From: Myxococcaceae bacterium
Lineage (GTDB): Bacteria > Myxococcota > Myxococcia > Myxococcales > Myxococcaceae
Reading direction: 5' to 3'
Assembly (NCBI GenBank): GCA_019694595.1
Contig: JAIBBQ010000043.1
Span: 1-37,145 of the forward strand
Length of the DNA: 37,145 bases
Shown: one piece after another, positions 18,506 to 35,571 of the stretch
How the letters are laid out: every line of letters starts with the position of its first letter
How positions within the stretch are numbered: position 1 is the first letter of the stretch
Program-made: the position numbers and the translations under genes
Notes under the pieces: model-generated
The model's input: the letters and a program-made list of their open reading frames with translations, nothing else
Told to the model about the DNA's origin: nothing
Database searches by the model: none

Positions 18506-19894
18506 ATGTCCGCGCACGGCTGGTTCCCGGTCACCCTGAAGGCGCACGGCTTCTACCGGACGCTGGAGCCGTTGTTCGACCGCGGCGAGGTGGAGGCCTT
18601 CACCGACGGCGAGCCCTTCTCGCGCCAGGCGGCCGACGGCTTCGGCATGTTCTTGGGCAGCGTCGGCGGGCGGCGGCTCGGCGTGGTGGCCTGCGACTTC
18701 CGGGTGGCGGGCGCCTCGTTCGGCAAGGCGAGCTCGCGCCGGTTGCTCGCCTTCGTGCGTGCGATGGGCCAGTCGCGCACGCCCATCTTCTTCCAGCTGC
18801 ACACCATGGGGGTGCGGCTCACCGAGGGGCGCACGGTCTTCCACGACGCGTTCCAGCTGATCCCCGCGCTGTCGGGCTTCGCCGCGCGCAACCTGCTCAT
18901 CACGTCGGTGCACGGCAACTGCCTCGGCCTGGGCGCCATCCTCTACGGCCTGGGGCACGCGCAGTACGCGGTGACCGGCAAGAGCTTCAACCTGACCGGC
19001 CCCGAGGTCTTCAAGATGTTCTTCGGGGAGAAGGTCGACTACCAGGCGGCGACCGGCGTCGAGCGCGTCTCGCAGCACACCGAGCAGATCCACGAGCTGG
19101 TGCCGACCTCGGAGCACGTCTACGCGAAGGTGCGGGCGCTGCTGACGGGCGTGCCGGACGCCGAAGCGGCCCCGCTGCCTCCGAAGCTCACCGCGCTGCT
19201 CGCCACCTGCGCCGACGACGCGGTGGAGGTGCTGGCGTCGAAGAAGCCCGGCCTGTGGGCGCTGGTGGCCCGCCAGGGCACGCGGCGCTTCGGGCTCATC
19301 GCTCCCGAGCCTGGCCGCCCCAACCTGCTCACCGTCGACGGCATCGCCAAGTGCCGCGCGGCGCTCAAGCTGTTCGCCCGCATGCGGCTGCCGGTGGTGA
19401 GCCTGGTGGACACCGCCGGCACCGACCCGCGCCTGGAACAGAGCGACCGCAACGTCACCGGCGAGCTGGTGGCGCTGGGCGAGGCCATCGCGGCCCATCG
19501 CCACGGGCTCCTGGGCGTGGTGGTGGGGCGGGCCTTCGGCGGCGCGAGCCTGCTCGCCTTCCCGCGCTCCTTCGGCAGCGACCGGGTGCTGGCGCTCCAG
19601 GGCGCGCGCATCGACATCATGGATCCGAAGATCGTGGGCGCCCTGGTCTCGGGCTCGGCGCGCCTGCGCGAGCAGTGGGACGCGGTCGTCGCTTCCCAGG
19701 GAGACGGCCTGGGCGATCTCGTCGAGGCGGGCATCATCGACGGCGTCATCTCCGCGGCCGGGTTGCGCGGCGCGGTCCGGCAGTTCCTCGAAGCGCGGGC
19801 GCGTCCGCTCAGCGGTGTGGTGCCGCTGCCCGCGAGCGCCCGCTCGCTCTACGCCGACGACGACGTGGAGATCACGGCAGGAGGCAGGGCATGA
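18506..19894 (+). CDS. Acyl-CoA carboxylase carboxyltransferase-like (PccB/AccD-type) protein
   Basis: A 462-residue protein with the two crotonase-like halves of biotin-dependent carboxyltransferases. The N-half contains GNCLGLGAILYGLGHAQYAVTG and GPEVFKMFFGEKVDY. The C-half contains LPVVSLVDTAGTDPRLEQ, RAFGGASLLAF and the MDPKIVGALVSG segment. PccB proteins are usually 510-540 residues, so it is short. No biotin carboxylase or biotin carrier gene is nearby; it would have to borrow these from elsewhere, or work as a decarboxylase (malonate or glutaconyl type). As first gene of the operon it may supply an alkylmalonyl-CoA unit to the KAS III enzymes downstream. The ATG at 18506 follows the possible sigma-54 site, and its stop overlaps the desaturase start as ATGA. 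Confidence 0.75.
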   Translation: MSAHGWFPVTLKAHGFYRTLEPLFDRGEVEAFTDGEPFSRQAADGFGMFLGSVGGRRLGVVACDFRVAGASFGKASSRRLLAFVRAMGQSRTPIFFQLHTMGVRLTEGRTVFHDAFQLIPALSGFAARNLLITSVHGNCLGLGAILYGLGHAQYAVTGKSFNLTGPEVFKMFFGEKVDYQAATGVERVSQHTEQIHELVPTSEHVYAKVRALLTGVPDAEAAPLPPKLTALLATCADDAVEVLASKKPGLWALVARQGTRRFGLIAPEPGRPNLLTVDGIAKCRAALKLFARMRLPVVSLVDTAGTDPRLEQSDRNVTGELVALGEAIAAHRHGLLGVVVGRAFGGASLLAFPRSFGSDRVLALQGARIDIMDPKIVGALVSGSARLREQWDAVVASQGDGLGDLVEAGIIDGVISAAGLRGAVRQFLEARARPLSGVVPLPASARSLYADDDVEITAGGRA

Positions 19895-20808
19895 ACCCCT
19901 CGACGGTGGTGTCCATGGAGCGCATCCGCGCGCTCTCCAAGCCGAGCGCCCCGCGCGCCATCTTCTGGGCTCTCGCGGCCTGGGTGACCATCGTCGCCCT
20001 GGCGGTGCTCGACTCCCGGTTCGGCAACCCGCTCACCACCGTGCTGGTGGTGCTGCTCATCGCCAACCAGCAGCACGCGCTGCTCATCCAGATGCACGAC
20101 GCGTCGCACTGGCGGCTCTCGCAGCACCGCTGGCTCAACGACCTGGTCGGCGAGCTGCTCTGCGCGTGGCCGATGTTCTTCCGCATGGCGGCGTACCGGG
20201 AGAACCACCGCATGCACCACCTGCACGCCAACACCGCGCTCGACCCCGACTTCCGCCCGGGCCGCTTCCCCAAGTCGAAGGAGCAGGCGCTCAAGATGCT
20301 GGTGCTCGACGTGCTGGCGCTCAACACCTTCGAGCAGCTGGGAGAGCTCAAGCGGCTCAAGAAGCCCACCAGCGCGAAGCTCAAGCTCGCGCGGCTCGCC
20401 TTCTACGGCACCGCGGCGGCGCTCATCACCTGGGCAGGCCTCTGGCCGCAGGTGCTGCTGTACTGGGTGGTGCCGCTCTTCACCTGGCTCAAGGTCATCC
20501 TGCGGCTGCGCGCCATCGCCGACCACGCGGGCGTGGAGCAGCAGGCCCGGCCCTACGACACCCGCACCGTGGTGCCCACGCTGGTCGACCGGCTCTTCGT
20601 GGCGCCGCGCAACTGCTCGTACCACTTCGGTCACCACGCCTACGAGAGCGTGCCCTGGTTCAACCTGAAGGCGCTGCACGTGGAACTCATGCAGCACCCG
20701 GAGCTGCGCGCGCGGGTGCGGGTGACCAGGGGCTTCCACCGCCTCCTCGACGAGCTGCCCTCGGCCAGCCTGGGCGCGCCCGCGCCGGCGCCGACGAGCG
20801 CGGGGTAG
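19891..20808 (+). CDS. Membrane fatty-acid desaturase
   Basis: A 305-residue membrane di-iron enzyme. The three histidine boxes are HDASH (69-73), HRMHH (106-110) and HFGHH (245-249), with an extra His at 212 in DHAG. Hydrophobic segments lie near 25-62, 85-100 and 170-205, the usual pattern for acyl-lipid or acyl-CoA desaturases and related hydroxylases. It overlaps the carboxyltransferase stop as ATGA and ends three bases before the next gene. It probably adds a double bond or hydroxyl to one acyl substrate of this pathway. Carotenoid ketolases share the fold, but the operon context favours a fatty acid. Confidence 0.88.
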   Translation: MNPSTVVSMERIRALSKPSAPRAIFWALAAWVTIVALAVLDSRFGNPLTTVLVVLLIANQQHALLIQMHDASHWRLSQHRWLNDLVGELLCAWPMFFRMAAYRENHRMHHLHANTALDPDFRPGRFPKSKEQALKMLVLDVLALNTFEQLGELKRLKKPTSAKLKLARLAFYGTAAALITWAGLWPQVLLYWVVPLFTWLKVILRLRAIADHAGVEQQARPYDTRTVVPTLVDRLFVAPRNCSYHFGHHAYESVPWFNLKALHVELMQHPELRARVRVTRGFHRLLDELPSASLGAPAPAPTSAG

Positions 20809-20811
20809 CGC

Positions 20812-21825
20812 GTGTTCCGCAGCGCGCGGTACCAGGGCGGCTTCTCCATCGACGCCGTCGCGTCGTGCGACTTCGAGCGGCTGGTGCCGGTGACCAACGC
20901 CGAGGTGCTGGAGCGCGGCGGCCGCAAGGCGGATCCGCGGCTCCTCGGCTTCCTCTGCCAGGAAGTGGGCATCGAGGGCCGCTTCTTCTGTCCCCCCGAG
21001 CGCAACGCCTTCGACCTCGCGAAGGAAGCCATCGAGCGGCTCCTCGCGCAGGACCCGAGCCTGCGCACCGAGGCCGAGTTCCTCATCTACTGCGGCATCT
21101 CCAACCCGATGCCCACGGTGTGCCACGCGGCGCTGCTGGCCCACGAGCTCGAGTTCACCAGCGCGAGCTGCTGGGACCTCAAGTCCGGGTGTTCGACCGC
21201 GGTGCTGGGGCTGGTGCAGGCGCTGGAGTGGTTCGAGCGCGGCGCCCGGCGCGGCGTGCTGGTGGCGAGCGAGACGTTCTCCAAGTTCACCAACCCCGAG
21301 GCGCTGGAGCTGGCGGCGACCAGCGGCGACGGAGCGTGCGCCATCGCGCTCTCGGCGACGGACGCCTGGCGGGCGCGCGGCGTGGTGCACGGCACCAACC
21401 CGACGTACTTCAAGAGCGCGTACGTGCCGGGGAAGTACCCGGTCGACGTCGAGCGCTGGCGCCAGTCGGACTACTGGTTCTCCTTCGACGCCAAGCCGCA
21501 GGCCATCACCGCCATCGGCGAGGCGTGGGTGAAGTCGCTCGCCGACGTGCTCCAGGTCTCCGAGCTGCCGGGCGAGCGGGTGACGCACTACGTGAGCCAC
21601 CAGATCGACGCGAAGAAGAACCGCCAGTTCGCGAAGAGCGGCCAGGTGCCCGACGCGGCCATCTACGAGAACTTCCGGCGCTTCGGGAACATGGGCTGCC
21701 CCACGGTGCTGCTCAACTACCAGTCGCGACCGCTCCCGACGTACGCCAAGGGCGACGTGCTGCTCTTCCACGCGGTGGGGGGCGGCATCTCGCACGCGGC
21801 GCTGTGTCTCGAGCGCATGCGGTGA
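20812..21825 (+). CDS. KAS III-like condensing enzyme (first copy)
   Basis: A 337-residue thiolase-fold enzyme. The expected triad is present: Cys127 in SGCSTA, His263 in VSHQID, Asn293 in FGNMGCPT. The Cys surroundings differ from housekeeping FabH (AACAG) and the Asn loop reads NMGCPT instead of NTSAAS, so this is a specialised member. The GTG start is three bases after the desaturase stop. Its own stop overlaps the ligase gene as GTGA. It probably joins two acyl thioesters, perhaps as a partner of the second copy at 23102-24082, as in LstA/LstB and NltA/NltB. The pairing is inference; the fold and triad are visible. Confidence 0.85.
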   Translation: MFRSARYQGGFSIDAVASCDFERLVPVTNAEVLERGGRKADPRLLGFLCQEVGIEGRFFCPPERNAFDLAKEAIERLLAQDPSLRTEAEFLIYCGISNPMPTVCHAALLAHELEFTSASCWDLKSGCSTAVLGLVQALEWFERGARRGVLVASETFSKFTNPEALELAATSGDGACAIALSATDAWRARGVVHGTNPTYFKSAYVPGKYPVDVERWRQSDYWFSFDAKPQAITAIGEAWVKSLADVLQVSELPGERVTHYVSHQIDAKKNRQFAKSGQVPDAAIYENFRRFGNMGCPTVLLNYQSRPLPTYAKGDVLLFHAVGGGISHAALCLERMR

Positions 21826-23105
21826 GCCTCGCCGAGCAGTTCCTCGGCCTGCGCCTGTCCCGGGCGGGGCAACCCATCACCCCGGTCGAGAAGGCCCAGG
21901 CGCTCGAGGCGGCCCGGGCGGCGCTGAGCGCCTTCGCGCCGGGTGCGGCGGTCACCGTGGCGGCCACCGAGCCGCTCGGCTTCGCGGTGAGCTTCTTCGC
22001 CGCGCTCGACCGCGGGCTGGCGCCGGTGACGGCGGCGCGGGGCCAGGCGCTCCTCTCGCCGTCGTCGCTCGCGCTCTCCGCCCCCGGGAGCGCCTACGCC
22101 TGCCTGACCTCGGGCAGCACCGGCGAGCCGAAGGCGTGCGTGCTCACGCTCGACGGGGCGATGGCCAACGCGCGCGCTCACGCCCGCTCGCTGCGCCTCG
22201 GCGCGGAGCACACCGTGCTGCAGACGCTGTCGCTCGCCCATTCGTTCGGGGTGGTCGCCGCGCTGCTGACGCCGCTGGTGACCGGGTGCGCGCTCGACTT
22301 CAACGACGCCCTGCTGTCGAGGCGCGCACTCGGGCGACGCACGCTCTCGCGCGTGGTGCTGAGCCTCAGTCCCGCGCAGGCGCGGTGGATGCTGCGCGAG
22401 GGCGGCGCGCCGATCGAGGGGGTCGAGGTGCTGAGCGTGGGCGCAGGCCTCCTCACGCCCGAGGAGTGGACGGCGCTCCAGGCGGTCTTCCCGGGCGCGG
22501 CGTGCTTCGCCACCTACGGGCTCACCGAGGCCGGGCCCCGGGTCAGCACCGGCCGCGTCTCGCCCGGCGCACCGGAAGGGGCGGGCTTCATCGGCGTTCC
22601 ACTCGAGGGGGTGGACGTGGCGGTGCTGGGCGACGCTCGCGAGGTGGCCGCCGCCGGCACCGGGCGACTGCTGGTGCGCAGCCCGTCGCTGGCCCACGGG
22701 CTCGAGCCGGCGCAGCTCCACCAGGGCTGGCTGCTCACCCGCGATCGGGTGGAGCTGAAGGCGGATGGGCGGCTCTACTTCCTCGGCCGCGAGAGCGACG
22801 TCATCAAGGTCGGGGGGCTCACCTTCTTCTCGAGCCAGCTCGAGGCTGCGGCGCGGAAGGTGGAAGGCGTGGTGGACTGCGCGGTGGTGATTCGCTCGCA
22901 CGTGCTGGCCAACGACCGCTGGACGCTCCTCTTCGCCGGGTCCGCCTCGGAGGACCAGGTGTGGGCCGGGCTGCGGAGCCAGCTCGAACCCGCCGCGCTG
23001 CCAGTGCAGGTGCGCTGCGTGCCGCGCGTGGAGCGCTCGGCGCTGGGCAAGGTGGAGCGCGCGTGGGCCGAGGTGGCCGCCGGCGCGGAAGGAACGACGC
23101 CGTGA
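21822..23105 (+). CDS. Short AMP-forming ligase of the acyl-CoA synthetase superfamily
   Basis: A 427-residue adenylate-forming enzyme with the core motifs: P-loop-like LTSGSTGEPKA (95-105), YGLTEAG (232-238), TRD (307-308 within), the hinge region GRESDVIKVGG (322-332), and the catalytic Lys410 in SALGKVERA. Acyl-CoA synthetases and OleC are typically 500-560 residues. Here the missing length is at the N-terminus. It may activate a free fatty acid, load the acyl carrier protein, or act as an OleC/LstC-type enzyme that closes a beta-hydroxy acid to a beta-lactone. It overlaps both neighbours as GTGA, so it is made together with both KAS III enzymes. Confidence 0.85.
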   Translation: MSLAEQFLGLRLSRAGQPITPVEKAQALEAARAALSAFAPGAAVTVAATEPLGFAVSFFAALDRGLAPVTAARGQALLSPSSLALSAPGSAYACLTSGSTGEPKACVLTLDGAMANARAHARSLRLGAEHTVLQTLSLAHSFGVVAALLTPLVTGCALDFNDALLSRRALGRRTLSRVVLSLSPAQARWMLREGGAPIEGVEVLSVGAGLLTPEEWTALQAVFPGAACFATYGLTEAGPRVSTGRVSPGAPEGAGFIGVPLEGVDVAVLGDAREVAAAGTGRLLVRSPSLAHGLEPAQLHQGWLLTRDRVELKADGRLYFLGRESDVIKVGGLTFFSSQLEAAARKVEGVVDCAVVIRSHVLANDRWTLLFAGSASEDQVWAGLRSQLEPAALPVQVRCVPRVERSALGKVERAWAEVAAGAEGTTP

Positions 23106-24082
23106 GGGTGGTGCTGAAGCGCGTGGCCTTCGCGGTGCCCGACCGGGTGGTGACCAACGACGAGCTCATCGCGGCGCGCGGGCTCAAGATGAAGGCGTCG
23201 TGGATTGCCAAGCACCTCGGCGCCGTCGAGCGCCGCTGGGCGGCCGAAGGCGAGGCGGCGAGCGACCTCGGGGTGCGCGCGGTGCGGGCGCTCGGGCTGG
23301 AGCGCTTCCAGGGCGCGCTCTTCGTCTCCACCGTCTCGCCCGACCACCTGACGCCGTCGACCGCGTCGATTCTCAAGCGAAAGCTGGGGCTGACCGACGC
23401 CTTCCCGGCGCTCGACGTGAGCGCAGCGTGCGCGGGGGCGCTGTTCGCGCTCGAGCAGGCGCGCTTCCGCCTCGAGTGCACCGGGGAAGCCGAGGCGCTG
23501 GTGGTGGCCACCGAGGTGCGCAGCCGCTTCGTCAACCCGGACGACCGCCGCACCGTCTTCCTCTTCGGCGACGGGGCGTGTGCCTTCCACCTCACGCGCG
23601 AGGAGCGCAGCGACGTGGGCCTGGAGTGGACGGTGACGCGCACCGTGGCGAGCGCGTCGGTCGACATCCTGGTGCCCGGCGGCGGCTCGGCGGCGCCGCT
23701 CGACGCGCAGGCGCTCGCGCGCGGCGACCAGTTCATCCGCATGCTCGACGGCCCGAACATCGTGGAGCTCACGCTCACCACGCTGGTCGACGCGGTGAAG
23801 GGCGAGCTCTCGGCGCGGGCGATTCCGGTGGAGCGCATCGACCACCTCTTCCTGCACCAGGGCAACGCCGCCATCTGCGAAGCGGTCGCCGGGCGGCTCG
23901 GCATCCCGCCCGAGCGGACCTGGTCCAACTTCGGCCGCTTCGGCAACACCAGCAGCGCGAGCGTGGGCCTGTGTCTGGCGGAGGCTGCGGCTGCGGGGAA
24001 GCTGTCGCGCGGCCAGCGCGTGCTCCTGGTGGCGATGGGCGCGGGCAACCACCTGGGCATGGTGTGCCTCACGTGGGCGTGA
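23102..24082 (+). CDS. KAS III-like condensing enzyme (second copy)
   Basis: A 326-residue enzyme closer to FabH than the first copy: Cys110 in SAACAGA, His252 in LHQGNAA, Asn282 in FGNTSSAS, plus the family segments TPSTASILKRKLG and GDGACAFHL. It shares fold but little close sequence with the first copy, so the two are not a recent duplication. The GTG start overlaps the ligase stop, and the gene's stop overlaps the SDR start as GTGA. It may condense with malonyl or alkylmalonyl units, or pair with the first copy as a heterodimer. Confidence 0.87.
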   Translation: MRVVLKRVAFAVPDRVVTNDELIAARGLKMKASWIAKHLGAVERRWAAEGEAASDLGVRAVRALGLERFQGALFVSTVSPDHLTPSTASILKRKLGLTDAFPALDVSAACAGALFALEQARFRLECTGEAEALVVATEVRSRFVNPDDRRTVFLFGDGACAFHLTREERSDVGLEWTVTRTVASASVDILVPGGGSAAPLDAQALARGDQFIRMLDGPNIVELTLTTLVDAVKGELSARAIPVERIDHLFLHQGNAAICEAVAGRLGIPPERTWSNFGRFGNTSSASVGLCLAEAAAAGKLSRGQRVLLVAMGAGNHLGMVCLTWA

Positions 24083-25035
24083 CGCTCGTCACCGGAGCGA
24101 CGGGCCTCCTGGGCGCCCACCTGGTGCGCGAAGGCCTCGCGCGGGGGCAGGCGCTGCGGGTGGTGGCGCGCACGATTCCCCGGCGCAGCTTCCTGTGGTC
24201 GGTGAAGGAGCAGGTCGACGTGCGGGCGAGCGATCTCTGCGCCGAGGTGCCGGCGTCGCTCCTGGACGGCGTGGACACGGTCATTCACGCGGCGGCGTCG
24301 TCGAGCCCGGGCGGCGAGGACGCCGAAGCGGCCGCTGCGCGCAACGTGCAGATGGTGGAGCAGCTGGTCCCCGCAGCGGCGCGCGCAGGTGTGCGGCGCT
24401 GGGTGCAGATCTCCAGCGTGGCCACGGTGAGCGGCGGCGCCCAGCCGGTGGACGAGCGCTCCACCACGCCGCGCGACACGCCGTACGCGAAGGCCAAGCG
24501 CGCGGCGGACCTGCTCGTCGCGGCCCGCGCGGGGGTGATGGCGGTCACCACGCTCCTGCCGACCTTCATGCTGGGCCCTTTCGACGCCCGGCCGTCGTCG
24601 GGCGCCGTCTTCCTCGCGCTCCGGGCGGGCGTGCTGCGCCACTTCGTCGACGTGCCGAAGAACCTGGTGGCCGCGGCCGACGTCGCGCGGGGGGTGTGGG
24701 CGGCGCTGGAGGCAGGCGCCACCGGGCCGTACCTCCTCGGCGGGGCCGACGTGCCGCTGCGGGAGTTCTTCGCCGAGGCGCTGCGACTGCTCGGGTTGCC
24801 CGCCGGCACGCTCGAGCAGCTCTCCGCGCTGCCGGCCGAGGGGGCGGGCGAAGGCAGCGACGCGCGCTCCTTCGCCATCGTGCGGGAGCTGTGCACGCCG
24901 AGCGAGGTGCGTTCCACCAGGGCGGAGCAGGCCTTCGGCTACCAGCCCACGCGGGACCCGTTCGTCGCGCTGCGCGAGCATGTCGAGTATCTTTCGAAGG
25001 CCCGACTGCTGCGGCTGGCCACGCCGTCAGCCTGA
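24079..25035 (+). CDS. Extended SDR, NAD-dependent epimerase/3-beta-HSD type
   Basis: A 318-residue Rossmann enzyme. TGATGLLG at 5-12 binds the nucleotide. Ser112/113, Tyr136 and Lys140 form the catalytic set (YAKAK). The C-terminal substrate domain follows from ~160. OleD, LstD and NltD, which reduce the beta-keto acid made by head-to-head condensation, belong to this same superfamily, so the order condensing enzyme, ligase, condensing enzyme, extended SDR is notable. The GTG at 24079 gives a GTGA overlap; a GTG two codons earlier is possible. Confidence 0.85.
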   Translation: MTLVTGATGLLGAHLVREGLARGQALRVVARTIPRRSFLWSVKEQVDVRASDLCAEVPASLLDGVDTVIHAAASSSPGGEDAEAAAARNVQMVEQLVPAAARAGVRRWVQISSVATVSGGAQPVDERSTTPRDTPYAKAKRAADLLVAARAGVMAVTTLLPTFMLGPFDARPSSGAVFLALRAGVLRHFVDVPKNLVAAADVARGVWAALEAGATGPYLLGGADVPLREFFAEALRLLGLPAGTLEQLSALPAEGAGEGSDARSFAIVRELCTPSEVRSTRAEQAFGYQPTRDPFVALREHVEYLSKARLLRLATPSA

Positions 25036-25051
25036 AGCGGGCCACGACGCC

Positions 25052-25816
25052 ATGGGCTACCGGCTGCTGATCACCGGAGGAACCTCGCAGATCGCGATGG
25101 CGCTCGCCGCGCGCCAGGCGGCGCTCGGGCGGGACGTCACCGTCACCGCGTCGAAGGAGGAGGGCGTCGAGCCGCTGCGCCGCCGGTACGCGGAAGCCAG
25201 GATTCCCGCCGCGGTGGTGGCGTTCGACCTCGACCCCGCGGTGCCGTACGGCCGGGCGCTCCAGGAGCTCCTCGGGTCCGGCGTCGACGCGCTGGTGCTC
25301 AACGCCGCGCCGCCGGTGAAGCGCTTCCGCCGGGTGCACCAGTTCCCCGCGAAGGAGATCGACGAGGCGCTGTCGCTCAACGTGGTGGGCAACTTCCGGC
25401 TGCTGCAGGCGGTGCTGCCGGGCATGGCGCAGCGCCGCTTCGGCCGGCTGGTCTTCGTCTCCTCGGCGATGGTGCAGCAAGCGGCGAGCCGGCACGCCCT
25501 CTACGCGCTCACCAAGAGCGCGGTGGAGTCGCTCTTCACCAGCGTGGCCATCGAGTACGCGGCGAAGAACGTGTTCGCCAACGTGGTGCGGCCGGGCATC
25601 ATCCGCACCGAGCGCACCCGCCGCTTCTGGAAGAACCCGGAGTACCTCGAGCGGGCGCAGCGCCTCATCCCCGCGGGCGCGCTGGGCCGGCCCGAACAGG
25701 TCGCGGAGGCGTTCGACCCGCTGCTCTCGGAGACCTCGTACCTCAACGGCTCGGTGCTGACCGTGGGCGGAGGGTTGCCCATCCTCAACCTGGCCGGCGT
25801 CGGAGGAGAGCCGTGA
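25052..25816 (+). CDS. Classical SDR oxidoreductase (3-oxoacyl reductase-like)
   Basis: A 254-residue short-chain dehydrogenase. The cofactor loop is GGTSQIA at 9-15 (usual TGxxxGxG, with the last Gly changed to Ala). NAA at 84-86 is present and the tetrad is Asn110, Ser138, Tyr151, Lys155. The C-terminus GSVLTVGGG is typical of FabG-like enzymes. It begins 16 bases after the previous gene and overlaps the P450 start as GTGA. It probably reduces a keto group or oxidises an alcohol on the operon's lipid product. Confidence 0.87.
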   Translation: MGYRLLITGGTSQIAMALAARQAALGRDVTVTASKEEGVEPLRRRYAEARIPAAVVAFDLDPAVPYGRALQELLGSGVDALVLNAAPPVKRFRRVHQFPAKEIDEALSLNVVGNFRLLQAVLPGMAQRRFGRLVFVSSAMVQQAASRHALYALTKSAVESLFTSVAIEYAAKNVFANVVRPGIIRTERTRRFWKNPEYLERAQRLIPAGALGRPEQVAEAFDPLLSETSYLNGSVLTVGGGLPILNLAGVGGEP

Positions 25817-27126
25817 GTGGCCGGCTGCCCCCGATGCTCCCGGGGCACTGGCTGCTCGGGCATCTCCCGGAGCGTCGGCGCGATGCGCTGGGGCTCTTCA
25901 TGCGCGGCGCTGCGCTCGACAGCCCGGTGGTGCGCTACCGCCTGGGCACCTTCACCACCTACCTGCTCAACGAGCCCGCGCTCATCAAGCAGGTGATGCA
26001 GGACAAGCTCGACCAGTACGGCAAGGGGCCCATCGTCGCCAAGATGGAGCCGCTCATCGGGCTGGGGCTCATCACCATCCAGGGTGCGGCCTGGCCGCGG
26101 CAGCGCAAGCTGGTGCAGCCGGTGTTTCACCACCAGCGGCTCGAGCGCCTGCACGCGCTGATGGACGAGCTCATCTCCGCGCGGCTGGACACCTGGCGCG
26201 CCCGCGGCGGGGAGCGCTTCGACCTCGTGCACGAGATGGTGCAGCTGACGATGGACATCATCTGCGCGTCGCTCTTCGGCCGCGGCGCGCTGCCGCGCCT
26301 CGCGGAGCTGTCGGGGGCGGCCACCGGCTTCGTCGACGAGGTGTCGGCGGAGATCCTCAAGGTCTTCACGCCCCTGGGGCTCTTGCTCAACCGGCGACCC
26401 CGGGCCGGGCCGGCAGGGCGGGCGCTGCGCGCGCTCATCGCCAGCCTCATCGAGCAGCGCCGCGCCGGCGAGGCCGACGGCGACGACATGCTCGGCGCGC
26501 TGATGGCCTCGAAGGACGACGCCGGCCAAGGGCTCTCACCCGAGGCGCTGCTCGACGAGGTGATGACGCTCTTCGTGGCCGGCCACGAGACCACCGCGGT
26601 GGCGCTGAGCTGGGCCTTCTGGCTGCTGAGCGTGCACCCCCACGCGCAGGAAGCGATTCGCGGCGACCCTCCCGCTCCCGCGGGCCGCGAGGCCACCTCC
26701 TGGGCGCGCATGGTCGCCGCCGAGGCGCTGCGGCTCTACCCGCCGGTGTGGAGCATTCCCCGGCGCGCGCTGGCCGACGACGAGATGGCCGGCTTCGACG
26801 TGCCCAAGGGCACCATGGTGATGGTCGCGCCGTACACCATGCAGCGGCACCCGAGGTTCTGGGAACGCCCCGAGGCCTTCGAGCCCGAGCGCTTCGCCCC
26901 GGGGAAGAGCCACGACCGCTTCGTCTACTTCCCCTTCGGCGTGGGGCCGCGCCGCTGCGCCGGCATGGGCTTCGCGCAGGTGGAGATGGAGTTCATCCTC
27001 GACCGGGTGTGCCGCGCCTTCTCCCTCGCGCGCGAGCCGCAGGCGCAGGTGAGCCCCCTGCCGCTGCTGACGCTCAAGCCTGACGGGCCGATGTGGATGC
27101 GGGCGCACCCACTGGGGCGCTCGTGA
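25813..27126 (+). CDS. Cytochrome P450
   Basis: A 437-residue soluble P450. The I-helix oxygen motif AGHETT is at 256-261, the K-helix ExxR as EALR at 304-307, and the haem-binding loop FPFGVGPRRCAG with Cys382 as ligand. The C-helix WPRQRKL is also typical. There is no membrane anchor and no fused reductase, so it needs external ferredoxin. The sequence style resembles fatty-acid-hydroxylating bacterial P450s. As last gene of the operon it probably hydroxylates or desaturates the assembled lipid. Its last 53 bases overlap the end of the opposite-strand gene at 27074-28129. Confidence 0.93.
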   Translation: MSGRLPPMLPGHWLLGHLPERRRDALGLFMRGAALDSPVVRYRLGTFTTYLLNEPALIKQVMQDKLDQYGKGPIVAKMEPLIGLGLITIQGAAWPRQRKLVQPVFHHQRLERLHALMDELISARLDTWRARGGERFDLVHEMVQLTMDIICASLFGRGALPRLAELSGAATGFVDEVSAEILKVFTPLGLLLNRRPRAGPAGRALRALIASLIEQRRAGEADGDDMLGALMASKDDAGQGLSPEALLDEVMTLFVAGHETTAVALSWAFWLLSVHPHAQEAIRGDPPAPAGREATSWARMVAAEALRLYPPVWSIPRRALADDEMAGFDVPKGTMVMVAPYTMQRHPRFWERPEAFEPERFAPGKSHDRFVYFPFGVGPRRCAGMGFAQVEMEFILDRVCRAFSLAREPQAQVSPLPLLTLKPDGPMWMRAHPLGRS

Positions 27127-28129
27127 GGACCTCGGACCAGGGCGTGAAGCCCAGCGTGGCCACCTCGGCGGGGCGCTCGCCCGGCAGCAGCACCTGAACG
27201 AAGCGCTCGAGCAGCTGCCGCGGCGCCTCGTCGCCTTCCGCGAGAGACGGGTGCAGCTGCAGCCCGATGCCCAGCCGCCCGTCGACGCAGATGCAGCCGC
27301 AGGCGATGGGCACCTTTCGCGACGCCGGCGGACAGCCGAGCCAGCCGCCGCGCACCTGCGGCGGGAGCCCGAGCTGCGCGGGGCGCCAGGTCCCCAGGTT
27401 GGAGAACGAGCCGGTCCACCCGAAGGGGAGCGCGAGGAGCCCGCGGGTGCGCGCGCGGTACTTCTCGAGGCCGATGACCTTGCCGAGGTTCATCGCCATC
27501 CACGCGCCGAAGTGCGCCCCGTCGCGCAGCCGCCCGCGCAGCCCGTCGGCGATGGCCCGCGGCGGCGAGCCGTCGGCGATGGACACGGTGAGGAAGCTGG
27601 AGTGGTTGGCGCGCGGGTTCTCCAGCCGCACCGCGCCGCGGAGGTTGACCGGCACCAGCCACGCCGGAATCTGGTTGCTCGAGAGGCCGAGCGAGGTGAC
27701 GGCCTGGTTCAGCCCCCAGAGCGAGAAGAGGTTGGAGTTCACCTTCGCCGCCCGCGCGTGGCGCTGGAAGCGCTTGGTGGCGTCGGCAGACACCAGCGCC
27801 CAGGCGACTCCCGCGGGCGGCCCCGACCGGTCGAGGCGCGGCCGCTCCGACGGGGCGAGCGGCGGGCGGGTGCGCAGGTAGCGCACGAAGGCGGCCGCGC
27901 GCACCGGCCACAGCGGCAGCTTCCCCGGGTAGGTCGGCAAGGGCTGCGGGGCGGCGCCGGCCTGCTCCAGCACCTCCTGCAGCGCGCCGAGGCCGTCGAC
28001 GCGCACGTGCGAGAAGCGGCTCCAGCGGGGCTGCGTCGCGCCGTCCGGGAGCTGCCCGCAGAGGATGTCGACGTTCTCGCCGAGCTCCTCGAAGACGCGG
28101 AACCACTCCCCAATCCAGTCGGTCTGCAT
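27074..28129 (-). CDS. Condensation-fold (WS/DGAT or alcohol-acyltransferase-like) protein, short N-terminus
   Basis: A 351-residue protein that looks like the later two-thirds of a condensation-type acyltransferase. A candidate HxxxDG active site is His41-Val-Arg-Val-Asp45-Gly46 (in FSHVRVDG). It is followed by a membrane-leaning linker, a helix like DATKRFQRHARAAKVNSN, the sheet ENPRANHSSFLTVSI, and a GSFSNLG segment as in the C-half of this fold. Normal members have the HxxxDG near residue 130, so ~90 residues are missing. A start at 28204 would add only 25. The ATG at 28129 is chosen because TACAGT lies 11 bases before it and the longer start would sit on the divergent gene's promoter. 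It could esterify or amidate a lipid from the neighbouring operon. Function is inferred. Confidence 0.55.
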   Translation of the reverse strand: MQTDWIGEWFRVFEELGENVDILCGQLPDGATQPRWSRFSHVRVDGLGALQEVLEQAGAAPQPLPTYPGKLPLWPVRAAAFVRYLRTRPPLAPSERPRLDRSGPPAGVAWALVSADATKRFQRHARAAKVNSNLFSLWGLNQAVTSLGLSSNQIPAWLVPVNLRGAVRLENPRANHSSFLTVSIADGSPPRAIADGLRGRLRDGAHFGAWMAMNLGKVIGLEKYRARTRGLLALPFGWTGSFSNLGTWRPAQLGLPPQVRGGWLGCPPASRKVPIACGCICVDGRLGIGLQLHPSLAEGDEAPRQLLERFVQVLLPGERPAEVATLGFTPWSEVLTSAPVGAPASTSARQA

Positions 28130-28140
28130 GGCCGGGCTCG

Positions 28141-28146
28141 ACTGTA
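28141..28146 (-). promoter_or_regulatory. Leaderless-type -10 element (TACAGT) for the gene starting at 28129
   Basis: The minus strand reads TACAGT, 11 bases, then ATG: the same hexamer and spacing as before the gene starting at 9740. Confidence 0.45.
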
Positions 28147-28198
28147 GCTGCGCTCCGCGCCGGGCGAGCGCTTCGTCGACCACCCGGAGGTCGTCGAC

Positions 28199-28204
28199 TA
28201 CCAT
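28199..28204 (+). promoter_or_regulatory. Leaderless-type -10 element (TACCAT) for the gene starting at 28212
   Basis: TACCAT is followed by seven bases and then the GTG start of the fusion protein. With 28141-28146 on the other strand it forms a compact divergent promoter region. Confidence 0.5.
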
Positions 28205-28211
28205 CGCGGCG

Positions 28212-30206
28212 GTGGACGCGGCCGCGCCTCCTCCTTCCTCGCCGCGCGCCCGGACCTGGGCCGCGTTGCTCGTGGCCTTCGTGCTGGTGGCGGTGGTGCT
28301 GTGGCGCATCGACGCGCGCGCCTTCGCCGACGCGCTGCGCGGCGTCGACGCCCTGGCCTTCTTCGGCTTCGCGCTCGTCTTCTCGCTCGCGCTGCTGACT
28401 GCGGACGCCTTCGCCACTGCGCCGCTCTACCGGAAGGTGGCGCCCGGGCTGCGCGTGGGCGACGTGTGGGTGGCGCGTGCGCGCAGCTACCCCGCGTCGG
28501 TGCTGAACCACCACCTGGGCCAGGCGCACCTCACCTGGCAGCTCGCGCGCCGCAGCGGCGTGCCCCTGCCGTCGGTCGCCGGGGCGACGCTGCTCGCGTA
28601 CACCTCGTGGAGCGGGTGGCTCGCGGCGGCGTGGGTGGCCTCCTCGGTGATGCGCGGCGGCGAGTGGTGGTGGTGGGCTGGCCCGGTGGCGGTGGTGGGC
28701 GGGTACCTGCTGCTCATCGCGCTCGCGCCCCGGCCGCTGACGACGGTGGCGTTCCTCGCGCCGCTCTTCGAGGCGGGCGTGCTGGGCCACGTGGTGGCCT
28801 GGGTGCAGCGCTTCCCCCACTTCGCGGTGCTCTTCCTGGGGACCTGGCTCTCGCCGCGCTTCTTCGGAGTGACGGTGCCCTTCGCCGAGGCGCTCACCTC
28901 GGTGCCGCTGCTCATGGTGGTGGCGACGCTCCCGGTGGCGCCCCAGGGGCTGGGCACCCGCGACGCACTCGCCGCGGCGCTGCTGCGTCAATTCGCGGCG
29001 GGCTCGAGCGCCGAGGAACAGCTCGCCCACGTGGCGGCGGCGACGCTCGGCTGGGCGGTGGTGCTGACGGTGCTGCAGCTGGCCCTGGGGCTCCTCGCGC
29101 TGCGGCTCGGCGCAGCGCCCGGCGACGCGCGCGCGGGGGAGCGGCGGCCGGTGGTGCTCTACGCGCTGGCGAGCAACGGCATGGCCCACGCGACCCGGGC
29201 GCTGCCCATGCTGGAGCGGCTGTCGCGCAGCTACGAGGTGCACGTCTTCTGCGGCGGGCCGGCGCGGCGGTGGCTCGCGGCGCGCTTCGAGCGGGTGCAC
29301 TGGATCCGCCGCTTCATGGCCTTCTACGTGGGCGACCGGGTGAGCATCCCCCTGGTGATGGCGGTCGCGGTGCTGACGCTGCCCTTGTCCGCCTGGTGCA
29401 TGCTCACCATCGGCTGGGTGATGGTGACGCGCCGGCCGCTCGCCCTGGTGACCGACTTCGAGGCGCTGTCCACGTGGACGGCGCTGCTGCTGCGGCCCTT
29501 CGTCAAGGTGCGGGTGGTGGTCTTCGACAACTTCTGCGCGGCGCGGGTGGCCGAGCCACCGTTCGACCCCACACCCGAGGAGCGGACGCTGCTGCGCAAG
29601 TGGCAGGGCACGCTGAAGGCGGTGGCGCCCACCGCCGACGTGTTCCTGGTGCAGTCGGTGGTGCACCCCACGCTCACCGACTCCAGGGCCCGCTACGTGC
29701 GGCCGCCGATTCGCGACCGCTTCCTCGGCTACGCGGGCCCGCGGAGCGACGACGGGCCGGTGGTGGTGTGCCTCGGCGGCACGCGCGGGTTCGACTGGCT
29801 GCCCGAGGTGCTGGAGCGCTCGGGTCTGCGCTGCCACGTCTACGGCTTCGACCAGGCACGCGAGGTGGGGGCGGTGTCCTTCCGCCGCTTCGAGGACGAC
29901 GCCTACCTGGAGTCGCTCGCGCACGCGCCCTTCTCGGTGGTGCGGGGCATCTCCTCGGCGTACGACGCGCTGTCGCTGGGCAAGCCGATTCTCTTCTGCC
30001 CGGCGGAAGGGCAGTTCGAGCACACCTTCAACGCGCGGCTCTTCGAGCGGCTGGGCGTGGGCCGCATGGCGGCGCCGCTGACGCCGGAGGCGCTGCGCGA
30101 CTTCCTCGCGGGGCTGGAGCCGTACCGCCAGCGGCTCGCCGGGCTGTCGATGTTCGACAACGAGAGCGTCTACGCCGAGCTCGAGCGCGCGGTGCGCGGG
30201 GCATGA
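28212..30206 (+). CDS. Fusion of a flippase-like membrane domain (LPG synthase TM/UPF0104 type) and a glycosyltransferase
   Basis: A 664-residue protein. Residues 1-300 hold many membrane segments, with the conserved marks of the lysylphosphatidylglycerol-synthase membrane family: ARARSYPASVLNHHLGQA in the middle and PVAPQGLGTRDALAAALL near 241-257. Residues ~313-664 are a GT-B glycosyltransferase of the MurG/MJ1255-like kind. It begins VVLYALASNGMAHATRALPML, and the donor site is VRGISSAYDALSLGKPILFCP with GQFEHTFNA. A hydrophobic stretch near 360-385 may keep the enzyme at the membrane. The membrane half may move or anchor the lipid that the other half glycosylates. The GTG at 28212 is chosen for the TACCAT element seven bases before it. 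It overlaps the acyltransferase-3 gene as ATGA. Confidence 0.8.
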   Translation: MDAAAPPPSSPRARTWAALLVAFVLVAVVLWRIDARAFADALRGVDALAFFGFALVFSLALLTADAFATAPLYRKVAPGLRVGDVWVARARSYPASVLNHHLGQAHLTWQLARRSGVPLPSVAGATLLAYTSWSGWLAAAWVASSVMRGGEWWWWAGPVAVVGGYLLLIALAPRPLTTVAFLAPLFEAGVLGHVVAWVQRFPHFAVLFLGTWLSPRFFGVTVPFAEALTSVPLLMVVATLPVAPQGLGTRDALAAALLRQFAAGSSAEEQLAHVAAATLGWAVVLTVLQLALGLLALRLGAAPGDARAGERRPVVLYALASNGMAHATRALPMLERLSRSYEVHVFCGGPARRWLAARFERVHWIRRFMAFYVGDRVSIPLVMAVAVLTLPLSAWCMLTIGWVMVTRRPLALVTDFEALSTWTALLLRPFVKVRVVVFDNFCAARVAEPPFDPTPEERTLLRKWQGTLKAVAPTADVFLVQSVVHPTLTDSRARYVRPPIRDRFLGYAGPRSDDGPVVVCLGGTRGFDWLPEVLERSGLRCHVYGFDQAREVGAVSFRRFEDDAYLESLAHAPFSVVRGISSAYDALSLGKPILFCPAEGQFEHTFNARLFERLGVGRMAAPLTPEALRDFLAGLEPYRQRLAGLSMFDNESVYAELERAVRGA

Positions 30207-31363
30207 GCGCGCCGGGCAGGCCGCAGCTGGCAGCGCTGAGCGCGGTGCGCTACCCCGCGGCGGCGCTGGTGGTGGCGGGCCACTTCAGCCGCGCGCCCGC
30301 CATCCTCCACGTCGACGTCGGCGCGGTGCCGCAAGGGGCGGTGTCGGTGGTGATGAGCGCGGGCCACGCAGCGCTCTCGCTCTTCTTCGTCCTCTCCGGG
30401 TACCTGCTGACGTACGGCCACCAGGGGCGGCCCTTCGAGGCGAAGCGCTGGTGGCGCGAGCGTCTGGCGCGGCTGTACCCGGCCTTCGCGCTCTCGCTGG
30501 TGCTGCTGGCGCCGCAGTTCTTCGTGCTGCGGCTCGGCTACCGGGGCGACGAGTGGGTGATGCAGCACCAGGTGGTGAGCGCGCTGCTGGTGGTGCTCCT
30601 GCTGCAGGCGTGGGTCCCGCCGGTGGCCGAGGCGTGGAACGGCGTGTCGTGGACGCTGTCGGCCGAGCTCCTCTTCTCGCTGCTCTTCCCGTGGTTGCTC
30701 GGCCGGCTCGAGCGCACGGGTCGCGCGAAGGCCGCGGGCCTGACGGCGCTGTGCCTGCTCGTCACCCTCGCGCTGCCGCTGGCGTACCTGGTGTGGCAGC
30801 CCGACGGCGCCGTGCCCACCGACGTCGGCCGGCACGGCGAGCACGCCTGGCTCACCGCGCTGCGGATGAACCCGCTCTCGCGTCTGCCGGAGTTCCTCGC
30901 CGGCATGGGCCTCGCGGTGTGGCTGCCGCCACAGGGGGAGTGGCGGCGCGGCCGCTGGCCCGACGTGCTGGTCGCCCTCGGGCTCGGGGTGATGGCCGTC
31001 GGTGCGGCCGTGTTCCCGGTGCTCCCCGTTCCGCTGTGGCACGCGGGGTGTGCGACGGTCGCCGCGGCGCTGCTGGTGGCAGGACTCGGTGGCGGTGGCC
31101 GGGCGGCGCGCGCGCTCGAGGCCGGCTGGCTGGTGCGCCTCAGCGGCGCCTCCTACGGCATGTACCTGTTCCACGTGCCGCTGGTGGCGCTGGGCGTGCT
31201 GGCCTTCGGCCGCTTCGGGGCGCCGTTCCCCGGCTCGGCGGCGGTGGTGTTCCTCGGCGTGCTGGCGCTCGCCACCGCGGCGGGGCTCGGGGTGAAGCGG
31301 GTGGTGGAGCCGTGGGGCCTTCGGCTGGTGCTCGGGCGCGCCGGGCTTCAGCCGCCGCGCTAG
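30203..31363 (+). CDS. Acyltransferase-3 family membrane protein (OafA/YrhL-like)
   Basis: A 386-residue protein with about ten membrane segments. It has the family marks: the N-terminal AGHFSR with the conserved His27, LFFVLSGYLLT, WRERLARLYPAF, GVSWTLSAELLFSLLFP, and the C-terminal GASYGMYLFHVPL. Relatives move acetyl or other acyl groups onto sugars or lipids at the membrane. The ATGA overlap with the glycosyltransferase fusion suggests it acylates the same glycolipid or glycan. The TAG stop shares CTAG (31360-31363) with the TAG stop of the convergent acyl carrier protein gene. Confidence 0.9.
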   Translation: MSAPGRPQLAALSAVRYPAAALVVAGHFSRAPAILHVDVGAVPQGAVSVVMSAGHAALSLFFVLSGYLLTYGHQGRPFEAKRWWRERLARLYPAFALSLVLLAPQFFVLRLGYRGDEWVMQHQVVSALLVVLLLQAWVPPVAEAWNGVSWTLSAELLFSLLFPWLLGRLERTGRAKAAGLTALCLLVTLALPLAYLVWQPDGAVPTDVGRHGEHAWLTALRMNPLSRLPEFLAGMGLAVWLPPQGEWRRGRWPDVLVALGLGVMAVGAAVFPVLPVPLWHAGCATVAAALLVAGLGGGGRAARALEAGWLVRLSGASYGMYLFHVPLVALGVLAFGRFGAPFPGSAAVVFLGVLALATAAGLGVKRVVEPWGLRLVLGRAGLQPPR

Positions 31364-31623
31364 GGCGGGCGGGCCGCGAGCGCCGCGGTCACCGCGCGGA
31401 CACAGTCGCCCGCCGTCTTCCACTGCACGATGGTGCGCTCGTCGAGCGCGGGGGCGAGCTCCATGAGCTCGAAGGCGAGCGCCATCAGCGCGACCGAGTC
31501 GAGGCCCAGCTCCTCGCGGAACCGCGTCTCCATCGCGAGGGTCGCCACCGGGCCGCGCAGCGCGAGGTCGGGGTTGCCGTTCAAGATGGCGGCGATTCTC
31601 GTGAGCAGCTCGGCTTCGGACAC
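31360..31623 (-). CDS. Stand-alone acyl carrier protein
   Basis: An 87-residue protein with the phosphopantetheine site LGLDSVALM, Ser43 being the attachment residue. Acidic helices before and after are as expected for this fold. The GTG start lies eight bases after TAGGGT. It is not next to fatty-acid synthase genes, so it is probably a specialised carrier, perhaps loaded by the short AMP ligase at 21822-23105, or serving the acyltransferases or hydroxylase nearby. Partners are inferred from position only. Confidence 0.9.
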   Translation of the reverse strand: MSEAELLTRIAAILNGNPDLALRGPVATLAMETRFREELGLDSVALMALAFELMELAPALDERTIVQWKTAGDCVRAVTAALAARPP

Positions 31624-31712: not shown

Positions 31713-32582
31713 GTGCGTGCCGCGCTGCGAGTGCTGGTCTTCCCGCTCCTCCTCGGGCTCTGTCTGCTCGCGACGTGGGCCCTGGTGCGCGCGGGGCTCC
31801 CCGTGCCGGTGGCGGCGACGGCGGTGGCGGTGGTGCAGACCCTGCTCTTGCTGGGGCTCGAGCGCGTCATCCCGTACCGGGTGGCCTGGGTGCGAGGCGA
31901 CGGTCAGACGGCGAACGACCTCGGGCACACGCTGGCGGGGACGGCGGTGGGCGCGTTCCTGGGCGACAGCTTGAACGGGGTGTGGGCCGGGGCGCTCGCG
32001 GCCTGGGCCAGCGAGGCGCTCGGCTCTCCGCTGTGGCCCACCTCGGCCCCGTTCCCGCTGCAGGTGGTGGGCGTCTTCCTGCTCGCCGACCTCGGGCGCT
32101 ACTGGCAGCACCGGCTGCACCACCGCTTCGCGTTCTGGTGGCGCTTCCACGAGCTGCACCACGACGTGCGCGCGATGGGAGCGCTCAAGGCGAGTCGTTC
32201 CCACCTGGTGGAGCGGCTGCTGCAGCAGCTCTTCATGTTCGGCCCGCTGCTCGCGCTGGGGGCGCCGCGCGAGGTGCTGTGGTGGTTCATCGTGCCCAAC
32301 TCGTTCCTGGGCGCCTTCGCCCACTGCAACGTCGACCTGCGGCTGGGGCCGCTCGAGTTCCTGGTGATGGGGCCGGCGAACCACCGCCTGCACCACGCGG
32401 TCGACCTGCGGCAGTCGAACGCCAACTTCTCCAGTGCGCTGGTGGTGTGGGACGTGGTGTTCGGCACCTGGCTCGACCCGCACCGCGAGACGCTGGGCGA
32501 GGTGGGCGTGACGCAGCCGACGCCGCAGGGTTTCGTCGCGCAGCTCGTCGCGCCGATGCGACGTCCTTCAAGCGCAAGTTGA
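31713..32582 (+). CDS. Fatty-acid hydroxylase/sterol-desaturase family enzyme
   Basis: A 289-residue integral membrane di-iron enzyme. The His boxes are HRLHH (133-137), HELHH (146-150) and NHRLHH (223-228), with His204 as a further likely ligand. Membrane segments lie at ~8-48, ~70-98, ~113-128 and ~170-198. Relatives hydroxylate fatty acids, sphingoid bases, carotenoids or sterol intermediates, or cleave alkyl glycerol ethers. Next to an acyl carrier protein and downstream of a lipid operon, acyl hydroxylation is the simplest reading. The GTG start follows a TAGGCT element. Confidence 0.88.
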   Translation: MRAALRVLVFPLLLGLCLLATWALVRAGLPVPVAATAVAVVQTLLLLGLERVIPYRVAWVRGDGQTANDLGHTLAGTAVGAFLGDSLNGVWAGALAAWASEALGSPLWPTSAPFPLQVVGVFLLADLGRYWQHRLHHRFAFWWRFHELHHDVRAMGALKASRSHLVERLLQQLFMFGPLLALGAPREVLWWFIVPNSFLGAFAHCNVDLRLGPLEFLVMGPANHRLHHAVDLRQSNANFSSALVVWDVVFGTWLDPHRETLGEVGVTQPTPQGFVAQLVAPMRRPSSAS

Positions 32583-33906: not shown

Positions 33907-35571
33907 TCACCCGCGCAGCTCCGGCGGGAGCTTCTCGAGCGCGGGCACCAGGTTCGAGACCTTGAGCTGCGCCTCGGCGGCGCCTTCCAGCACGCGGCGC
34001 TGGCGGAAGGCGGCGTAGCGCCCGGGCGGGAGCCACACCGGTGCGAGGCCGCGGAGCGCGTTGGCCTTGCGCAGGCGGCCGTAGTCGAAGCTCAGCCCCG
34101 AGAGCGCCCGGTCGGCCTCGGCGGCGAAGGCCGCGCGCGTCTCGCCGCTCCAGTCGGTCGAAGGCTCGACGTGCAGCGCGTAGCCGGGGAGCTGGCCGTC
34201 GAAGCGCGGCACGGCGACGAAGTACGCGCTCTCGAGTTTCAGCGAGGTCAGCGCCTGCTGCACGGCCTGCGTCACGTGGGCCTCGACGAGCTTCTCGCCG
34301 GCGAGGTTGGTGGCGGCGCCGTGCTTGCGCACGAAGCGGATGTTGGGAATCCCCTGGAACTGGCCGCAGGTCTCCACCACGTCGTGGAGCAGGTAGCGGT
34401 GCAGGCCGGCGCCGGTACTGAAGACGATGAGGTAGCGGCGGCCGTCTTCCAGCTCCCAGGCGTAGCGGGTGGTGCGCTCGCCGCGCTCGTACGCCTCCTC
34501 GTCGAGGAACTCGAAGAAGTGGGAGGTGATGGCGAGCGCTCCGCCGGGCTCCTCGTCGCCGGTGGGCACGGAGCACCAGCCTTCGCACGCCGAGTAGATG
34601 GCGTCGCGCACCGGCACCTGGGGCCCGAGGCGCCGGGTGAGCTCGGGGAGAAAGAGCGCCGCGGTGGCCGCGGTCCAGCAGTAGACGAGGCGCAGGTGGG
34701 GGAAGAGCACCTGGCCCTGGCCGTCGGGGCCGTGGTCGCGCGCGCGGCGCACCAGCTCGGCGTGCGCGGGGCTGCGCTCGAGGCGCGCGGCGAAGAGCGC
34801 CTGCTGGGCTGCGGGGAGCTCGAGCCAGCCGGGCAGGGTGCCGGAGCGGAAGGTGGCCTCGAGGTCCGGCGCGAAGCGCTCGAAGTCGCGCAGCAGGTAC
34901 ACCAGCGAGGCGGGGAAGATGCCGGCGATGACGGTGAGGTGGGCGCGGATGGCGAGCGCCAGGGCGAGGAAGGTGCGGGTCTCGAGGTGCTGCACCTCGA
35001 AGAGCGCGTACGGCCAGGCGTAGAGCTGCTGCACGGCCTTCGGCATCTCGGTGAAGTTGAAGCCGCTCATGGTGCCCACGTCGTTGCCGTCGCGGGCGAC
35101 GTCGACCCGGCGCGAACCGACGAAGTAGAGCGCCTGGCCGCGGAAGGCCTGGGGGAAGCGGAAGAAGAGGTGCCAGAGCGAGGCCTGCACCGTCTTCTGC
35201 AGCTCGGTGCGGTAGCTCGGGGTGATGGGCACGTGCTTGGGCTCGCCCGACGAGCCCGAGGTGCGCACGTAGTAGATGGGCGCCTCGGCGGAGAGGAGGT
35301 TGCGCTCTCCGGCCATCAACCGGTCGACGTACGGGGCGAGCCCTTCGGGGGTGAGCAGCGGCACGGCGGCGGAGTAGTCCTGCGGGGTGCGCAGCTTGGC
35401 GAAGCCGTGGGCCCGGCCGTACTCGGTGTCCCGGTGCGCCGAGAGCAGCGCGCGCAGCTTGGCTTCCTGGGCGCGCTTCACGTCGCGGCCGGCGAGCTCG
35501 AGCTCGAAGGCGGCGCGGGCGCGGGCGAGCTGTCCGAGCGCGTGCAGCAGCACCAATCGTGGTGGAGCCAT
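33907..35571 (-). CDS. GH3-family acyl-acid amido synthetase
   Basis: A 554-residue member of the plant-auxin GH3 superfamily, common in myxobacteria and Bacteroidetes. It adenylates a carboxylic acid and joins it to an amine, usually an amino acid. TSGSSGEPK (104-112) is the nucleotide P-loop. The segments YSACEGWCSVP and FSTGAGLHRYLLHDVVE follow the GH3 order, with the C-terminal mobile domain from ~410. The bacterial substrate is unknown. It is divergent from an MFS exporter and the two promoters overlap, so the conjugate may be exported by that transporter. The ATG at 35571 lies nine bases after TACGCT. Confidence 0.88.
   Translation of the reverse strand: MAPPRLVLLHALGQLARARAAFELELAGRDVKRAQEAKLRALLSAHRDTEYGRAHGFAKLRTPQDYSAAVPLLTPEGLAPYVDRLMAGERNLLSAEAPIYYVRTSGSSGEPKHVPITPSYRTELQKTVQASLWHLFFRFPQAFRGQALYFVGSRRVDVARDGNDVGTMSGFNFTEMPKAVQQLYAWPYALFEVQHLETRTFLALALAIRAHLTVIAGIFPASLVYLLRDFERFAPDLEATFRSGTLPGWLELPAAQQALFAARLERSPAHAELVRRARDHGPDGQGQVLFPHLRLVYCWTAATAALFLPELTRRLGPQVPVRDAIYSACEGWCSVPTGDEEPGGALAITSHFFEFLDEEAYERGERTTRYAWELEDGRRYLIVFSTGAGLHRYLLHDVVETCGQFQGIPNIRFVRKHGAATNLAGEKLVEAHVTQAVQQALTSLKLESAYFVAVPRFDGQLPGYALHVEPSTDWSGETRAAFAAEADRALSGLSFDYGRLRKANALRGLAPVWLPPGRYAAFRQRRVLEGAAEAQLKVSNLVPALEKLPPELRG

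Follow-up and report, generated by a model that had tools for sequence, protein, structure and literature searches.

Can a single polypeptide chain both glycosylate a lipid and carry the product across the membrane? The question is raised by a gene in the 37,145-nucleotide stretch analysed here, referred to as the window, which is the entire contig C111 of a 7.28-Mb genome (394 contigs, 99% complete). An initial annotation, made from the letters and open reading frames, described the gene as a flippase-like membrane domain of the LPG-synthase type joined to a MurG-like glycosyltransferase and coupled to an acyltransferase-3 gene. The architecture and the gene coupling were borne out, whereas the membrane half proved to be divergent and the glycosyltransferase half not specifically MurG-like. 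The resulting proposal, that one protein could make and translocate a glycolipid, is partly supported, in that it would fit both the protein families and the published precedents.

One reading frame and two domains

Listed in Table 1 are the features of the fusion gene and of its surroundings. The frame is open and unbroken from 28065 to 30206 on the forward strand. Translation from GTG 28212 gives 664 residues, with the TGA at 30204-30206 as the first stop. No stop separates the two halves, and thus they lie in one protein, as had been claimed. The one-chain fusion architecture is confirmed at the level of sequence; the activities of the halves we infer. The GC content by codon position, 0.71/0.54/0.96, is like that of the other genes of the window (73.7% GC). 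The start at GTG 28212 is tentative because no SD-like site precedes it under the definition used, and because the frame reaches back to ATG 28065, across the start of the divergent neighbor.

A frameshift artefact as the origin of the join was considered and rejected. Of the alternative forward frames, one stays open across 28145-31361, and the second contains stops at 29065 and 29341 that flank the junction. Neither yields two tidy genes, and thus one missed base would not explain the fused frame.

The junction itself holds an in-frame GTG at position 29151 (residue 314), located 9 bases after an SD-like GGGGGAG, where the stand-alone glycosyltransferase homologues begin. By the same rule, such a site precedes 21 of the 487 internal start codons across 14 genes of the window. 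A second, shorter product, namely the free glycosyltransferase, may be made from this codon in addition to the fusion. The initial annotation had named an internal stop or start as grounds for regarding the halves as separate proteins; there is no such stop, but a possible start is positioned at the junction.

Table 1. Positions in the window of the fusion gene, its parts, and the neighboring genes.
Feature	Position	Strand	Remarks
Carboxyltransferase-domain protein	18506..19894	+	
Fatty acid desaturase	19891..20808	+	
Second KAS III-like enzyme	20812..21825	+	
AMP-dependent acyl ligase	21828..23105	+	best NCBIfam match AmcH, 133.3 bits, under cut-off of 370
KAS III (FabH-like)	23111..24082	+	
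NAD-dependent epimerase/dehydratase-type enzyme	24079..25035	+	
Short-chain dehydrogenase (SDR)	24980..25816	+	
Cytochrome P450	25813..27126	+	
Divergent neighbor of the fusion	27074..28141	-	355 aa; no Pfam match
Fusion gene	28212..30206	+	664 aa; MprF/YbhN-type lipid transport domain at the N-terminus, GT-B glycosyltransferase at the C-terminus
Membrane half, residues 16-293	28257..29090	+	divergent LPG_synthase_TM (PF03706)/UPF0104
End of last membrane helix and short linker	29091..29150	+	between the halves; GGGGGAG at 29135-29141 precedes in-frame GTG 29151
Glycosyltransferase half, residues 315-634	29154..30113	+	Glyco_trans_1_3 (PF13528), Pfam
Acyltransferase-3	30203..31363	+	PF01757 Acyl_transf_3, 116.5 bits, cut-off 31
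Probable acyl carrier protein	31360..31623	-	87 aa; LGLDS site; PF00550, 20.5 bits, just under cut-off of 20.8

The membrane and glycosyltransferase halves

When the whole protein was compared with Pfam, PF03706 matched residues 16-293 over positions 2-302 of the 302 in the profile (E 8.7e-4, 19.3 bits). The membrane half alone again matched over the full length (E 4e-5, 23.7 bits), and a further run gave 21.6 bits; in every run the score fell under the curated cut-off of 33.4 bits. In the sub-family alignment of the membrane half, all 6 of the 6 members match PF03706 at E <= 1, the best at 5.2e-18. The homology to an accepted member of the family runs through a stand-alone paralogue of 313 residues, encoded on contig C272 of the same genome, which passes the cut-off with 50.6 bits and displays 31% identity with the membrane half over 291 columns (E 2e-22). 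Additionally, the loop motifs N-x-x-x-GQ and P-x-x-P-x-GLGT align roughly with Escherichia coli YbhN, an annotated PF03706 protein used for comparison. The acyltransferase-3, another membrane protein, gave no match to PF03706 at E <= 1. The sub-family profile (A2), searched at E <= 10, missed the canonical PF03706 protein encoded in this genome (C62), an hhalign comparison with YbhN and the C62 protein was weak (probability 36%), and a PDB sequence search with the sub-family profile gave no match. A single-sequence structure prediction of the full protein had a mean pLDDT of 38.8, which is too low for a fold search or for a view of the two re-entrant hairpins of the MprF fold.

On the basis of these comparisons, we are confident that the membrane half is a divergent member of PF03706, a confidence that extends to homology and not to function. 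The description "LPG-synthase-type" is upheld by the full-length match and by the link through the C272 protein, but the domain is divergent and lies beneath the Pfam cut-off. Membership in another family, which the annotation had named as the outcome that would speak against it, is not indicated, there being no convincing match to any other Pfam family. "Flippase-like" is better worded as an MprF-type lipid transport (scramblase) domain.

The contig of the stand-alone membrane paralogue contains ORFs that read partly as sugar/glycan genes (from ORF reading only). The ends of contigs C166 (locus L066) and C272 (L004) each hold the start of almost the same stand-alone membrane protein, the two copies being identical after the first ∼20 residues. 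On C166, it is preceded by ORFs that read as sugar isomerase and DegT-type aminotransferase genes.

The C-terminal half matches PF13528 at E 1.4e-31, its 110.3 bits lying well above the cut-off of 25, and no further Pfam family at E <= 1. In NCBIfam, TIGR00661 (the MJ1255/VC2487 subfamily) scored 66.1 bits on this region, under its cut-off of 195.9. A profile of 12 homologues, compared with solved structures, matched the GT1 enzyme 7vlb at E 2.1e-7, YjiC at 1.7e-6, and MurG (1f0k) at 0.022. Because the GT1 enzymes match far better than MurG, the half is read as a GT-B enzyme whose donor site is GT1-like. "MurG-like" is thus too specific; it remains valid as far as the GT-B fold is concerned, but the GT1 UDP-glycosyltransferases are closer, and an identity with MurG itself is rejected.

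An alignment of the glycosyltransferases was assembled from 31 sequences, namely 30 homologues and a paralogue on contig C59, out of 36 loci; L006, L009, and L015 were left out for internal stops, and L011 and L017 were omitted for no computed reason. Two positions that are invariant in 31 of 31 homologues are changed in the fusion, G325A (GMGH to GMAH) and Q604H (FEQ to FEH), and the donor-binding loop is missing one residue. Asp 585, in place of the usual glutamate, is common to the fusion and the C59 paralogue. Retained among the invariant or near-invariant residues are G323, H326, R329, D415, D439, N440, K591, P592, Q601, F602, E603, and N607. The aligned GT1 enzymes carry EQ at the place equivalent to His 604. 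For plant UGTs, PMC10934233 describes the last residue of the donor motif as glutamine in 55 of 56 glucosyltransferases and as histidine in 4 of 6 galactosyltransferases. Taken together, these two observations suggest, by analogy across families, that His 604 may correspond to a different sugar donor.

The genome also holds stand-alone PF13528 proteins, and the nearest of these to the fusion is the C59 paralogue (44-45%). This paralogue (L002, L061) adjoins two ORFs reading as Rieske-type oxygenases, again from ORF reading only.

Occurrence of the fusion and published precedents

The whole-genome searches score only the best first-look candidates, for example 8 or 12 per genome, and the counts that follow are to be read accordingly. 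With the whole protein, a match was observed in 45 of 60 relatives and, across the class, in 119 of 147 genomes, its own genome being counted in both. All of these matches fall on the glycosyltransferase half except that of the C272 protein, and the protein in the window is the only one to span both halves. With the membrane half, 4 of the 195 phylum genomes gave matches at E <= 0.001 (its own, G160, G166, and G167); the four matches in the latter three genomes are ORFs of 323-333 residues that lack a glycosyltransferase. No further PF03706-PF13528 fusion was encountered in any of the 194 other genomes of the phylum, the best candidates per genome having been scored. Similarly, of 37 glycosyltransferase loci examined, one (L019) is truncated where its contig ends, and none of the 36 informative ones has an in-frame hydrophobic segment upstream. 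Two scans of a contig collection, insensitive in that they rely on exact short peptide patterns, gave 83 pattern stretches and no relatives with the single protein, and 30 stretches and no second fusion when the fusion aligned with the C59 paralogue served as query. The one relative in the latter scan is a stand-alone glycosyltransferase in a Myxococcales MAG. A plasmid search for relatives of the fusion gave no match, and neither the PF03706-PF13528 combination nor its cluster was found in print among open-licence PMC papers. The combination in its cluster is thus one not met elsewhere in these searches, whereas the principle of pairing a lipid transport domain with a glycosyltransferase is already published.

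Among the proteins compared was AglD, the glycosyltransferase of which is of the GT2/GT-A type. The AglD of Haloferax volcanii, like the fusion, carries a glycosyltransferase and a UPF0104 domain on a single polypeptide, but in the opposite order, with the glycosyltransferase N-terminal and the membrane domain C-terminal (as described in PMC5898192); the reversed order rules out the whole protein as an AglD orthologue. The layout of the fusion is that of MprF, namely an N-terminal transport domain followed by a C-terminal cytoplasmic lipid-modifying enzyme in a single chain. The fusion differs in that it carries a PF13528 glycosyltransferase and no C-terminal aminoacyl transferase domain (pfam09924). 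Furthermore, whereas MprF has extra helices (TMD2) between the transport and soluble domains, as described in PMC11980842, only ∼20 residues separate the two matches in the fusion. The same account gives the logic of MprF as modification of a lipid at the inner leaflet and its translocation by the attached domain. It refers to MprF transport domains as "often fused" to glycosyltransferases, with O-antigen ligases also named, and cites a 2022 preprint by Hauser et al. for PplT-domain fusions, in which an MprF-type transport domain is joined to glycosyltransferases, as it is here.

The gpgSDF genes of Pseudomonas aeruginosa and the hexSDF genes of Clostridioides difficile likewise pair a lipid glycosyltransferase with a COG0392/MprF-like predicted flippase for a glycolipid. 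In contrast to the fusion, the functions are encoded by separate genes, together with a deacetylase, and the operons as described in PMC12713373 and PMC10128005 contain no acyltransferase-3. According to these accounts, the lipid forms even when the flippase gene is missing, and flipping itself was not demonstrated. Stand-alone glycosyltransferases of the Glyco_trans_1_3 or MJ1255/VC2487 type correspond to the whole of the glycosyltransferase half and have no membrane half.

Gene neighborhood and proposed function

The genes from 18506 to 31623 form a biosynthetic cluster (Table 1). The ATG of the acyltransferase-3 gene overlaps the stop of the fusion by four bases (ATGA), which, along with its strong family match, substantiates the coupling noted in the initial annotation. 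For the carboxyltransferase-domain protein, no close relative was found in 195 genomes of the phylum, the best match over its length showing 29% identity. The divergent neighbor of the fusion gave only a chance-level match in the PDB (E 0.26).

From the single open frame, the family assignments, the gene overlap, and the cluster context, we infer a sugar donor, an acceptor, a translocation, an order of steps, and a role for the acyltransferase as follows. In a protein laid out as MprF, the aminoacyl transferase would be replaced by a nucleotide-sugar-dependent GT-B glycosyltransferase. This half would add a sugar at the inner leaflet to a membrane lipid or to a lipid-like product of the ACP/KAS III cluster, the latter being suggested by gene position alone. 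The N-terminal half would let the glycosylated product pass to the outer leaflet, and the acyltransferase-3, probably co-translated, would next acylate it. The chances that this two-domain enzyme glycosylates a lipid and moves the product across the membrane for subsequent acylation are judged to be about even.

The membrane half could instead merely anchor the glycosyltransferase and present the lipid acceptor to it, a rather unlikely reading that would be consistent with the divergence of this half from its family. A cytoplasmic lipid site in PaMprF, for which a part in handing lipid on to the enzyme domain is suggested in PMC11980842, and the dispensability of HexF for product formation, as described in PMC10128005, point in the same direction. 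The PF03706 match extends over the full length, however, including the two loop motifs shared with YbhN, and a whole transport domain would be superfluous for an anchor. A decidedly improbable explanation is that the halves act separately, with GTG 29151 yielding the free glycosyltransferase and the fused form being a minor product or the result of neighboring genes having recently joined by accident. The SD-like site and GTG at the stand-alone start position, together with the absence of an upstream hydrophobic segment at the other informative loci, would accord with it. Nevertheless, with no stop between the halves the fused product should form, and, as the junction offers two candidate starts, ∼0.09 such sites are expected by chance, so that the site is weak evidence.

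Most improbable of the readings considered is that the glycosyltransferase half is losing or has lost its activity, or is a pseudoenzyme. The two substitutions at invariant sites and the shortened donor loop would be compatible with such decay, but many other conserved residues are retained, the codon composition is what a live gene would show, and a natural glutamine-to-histidine change at such a site goes with donor specificity in the plant UGTs described in PMC10934233.

A more specific form of the preferred glycosylate-and-translocate reading, in itself quite improbable, is that of a secondary metabolite being both tailored and delivered by a single-chain enzyme. A lipid derived from the ACP/KAS III genes would receive a non-glucose sugar, be carried across the membrane by the attached MprF-type domain, and be O-acylated by the acyltransferase-3; the non-glucose sugar is proposed because of His 604, a residue shared by the majority of the compared plant galactosyltransferases. 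If true, a natural-product cluster would use a lipid transport domain for export. According to PMC11980842, MprF transport domains are promiscuous scramblases that take their role from the enzyme to which they are fused, and a GT-B fusion in a lipid-making cluster would provide a compact test of this idea, with one protein, one product, and two activities open to assay. The fusion would also open a route to the product of this cluster, the carboxyltransferase of which lacks close relatives among the phylum genomes searched.

Beyond the cluster, the best match of an FA_hydroxylase at 31713-32582 (+) is to OlsE (197.9 bits, cut-off 475), and a nearby GH3-family protein at 33907-35571 (-) weakly matches OlsH (76.6 bits, cut-off 620); the pair possibly represents amino-lipid genes adjoining the cluster. 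Elsewhere in the window, a single ORF at 3384-5408 (-) contains ArgJ and amino-acid kinase domains, and is thus an ArgJ-kinase fusion; it adjoins genes for a semialdehyde dehydrogenase (argC-like) and a lyase (argH-like).
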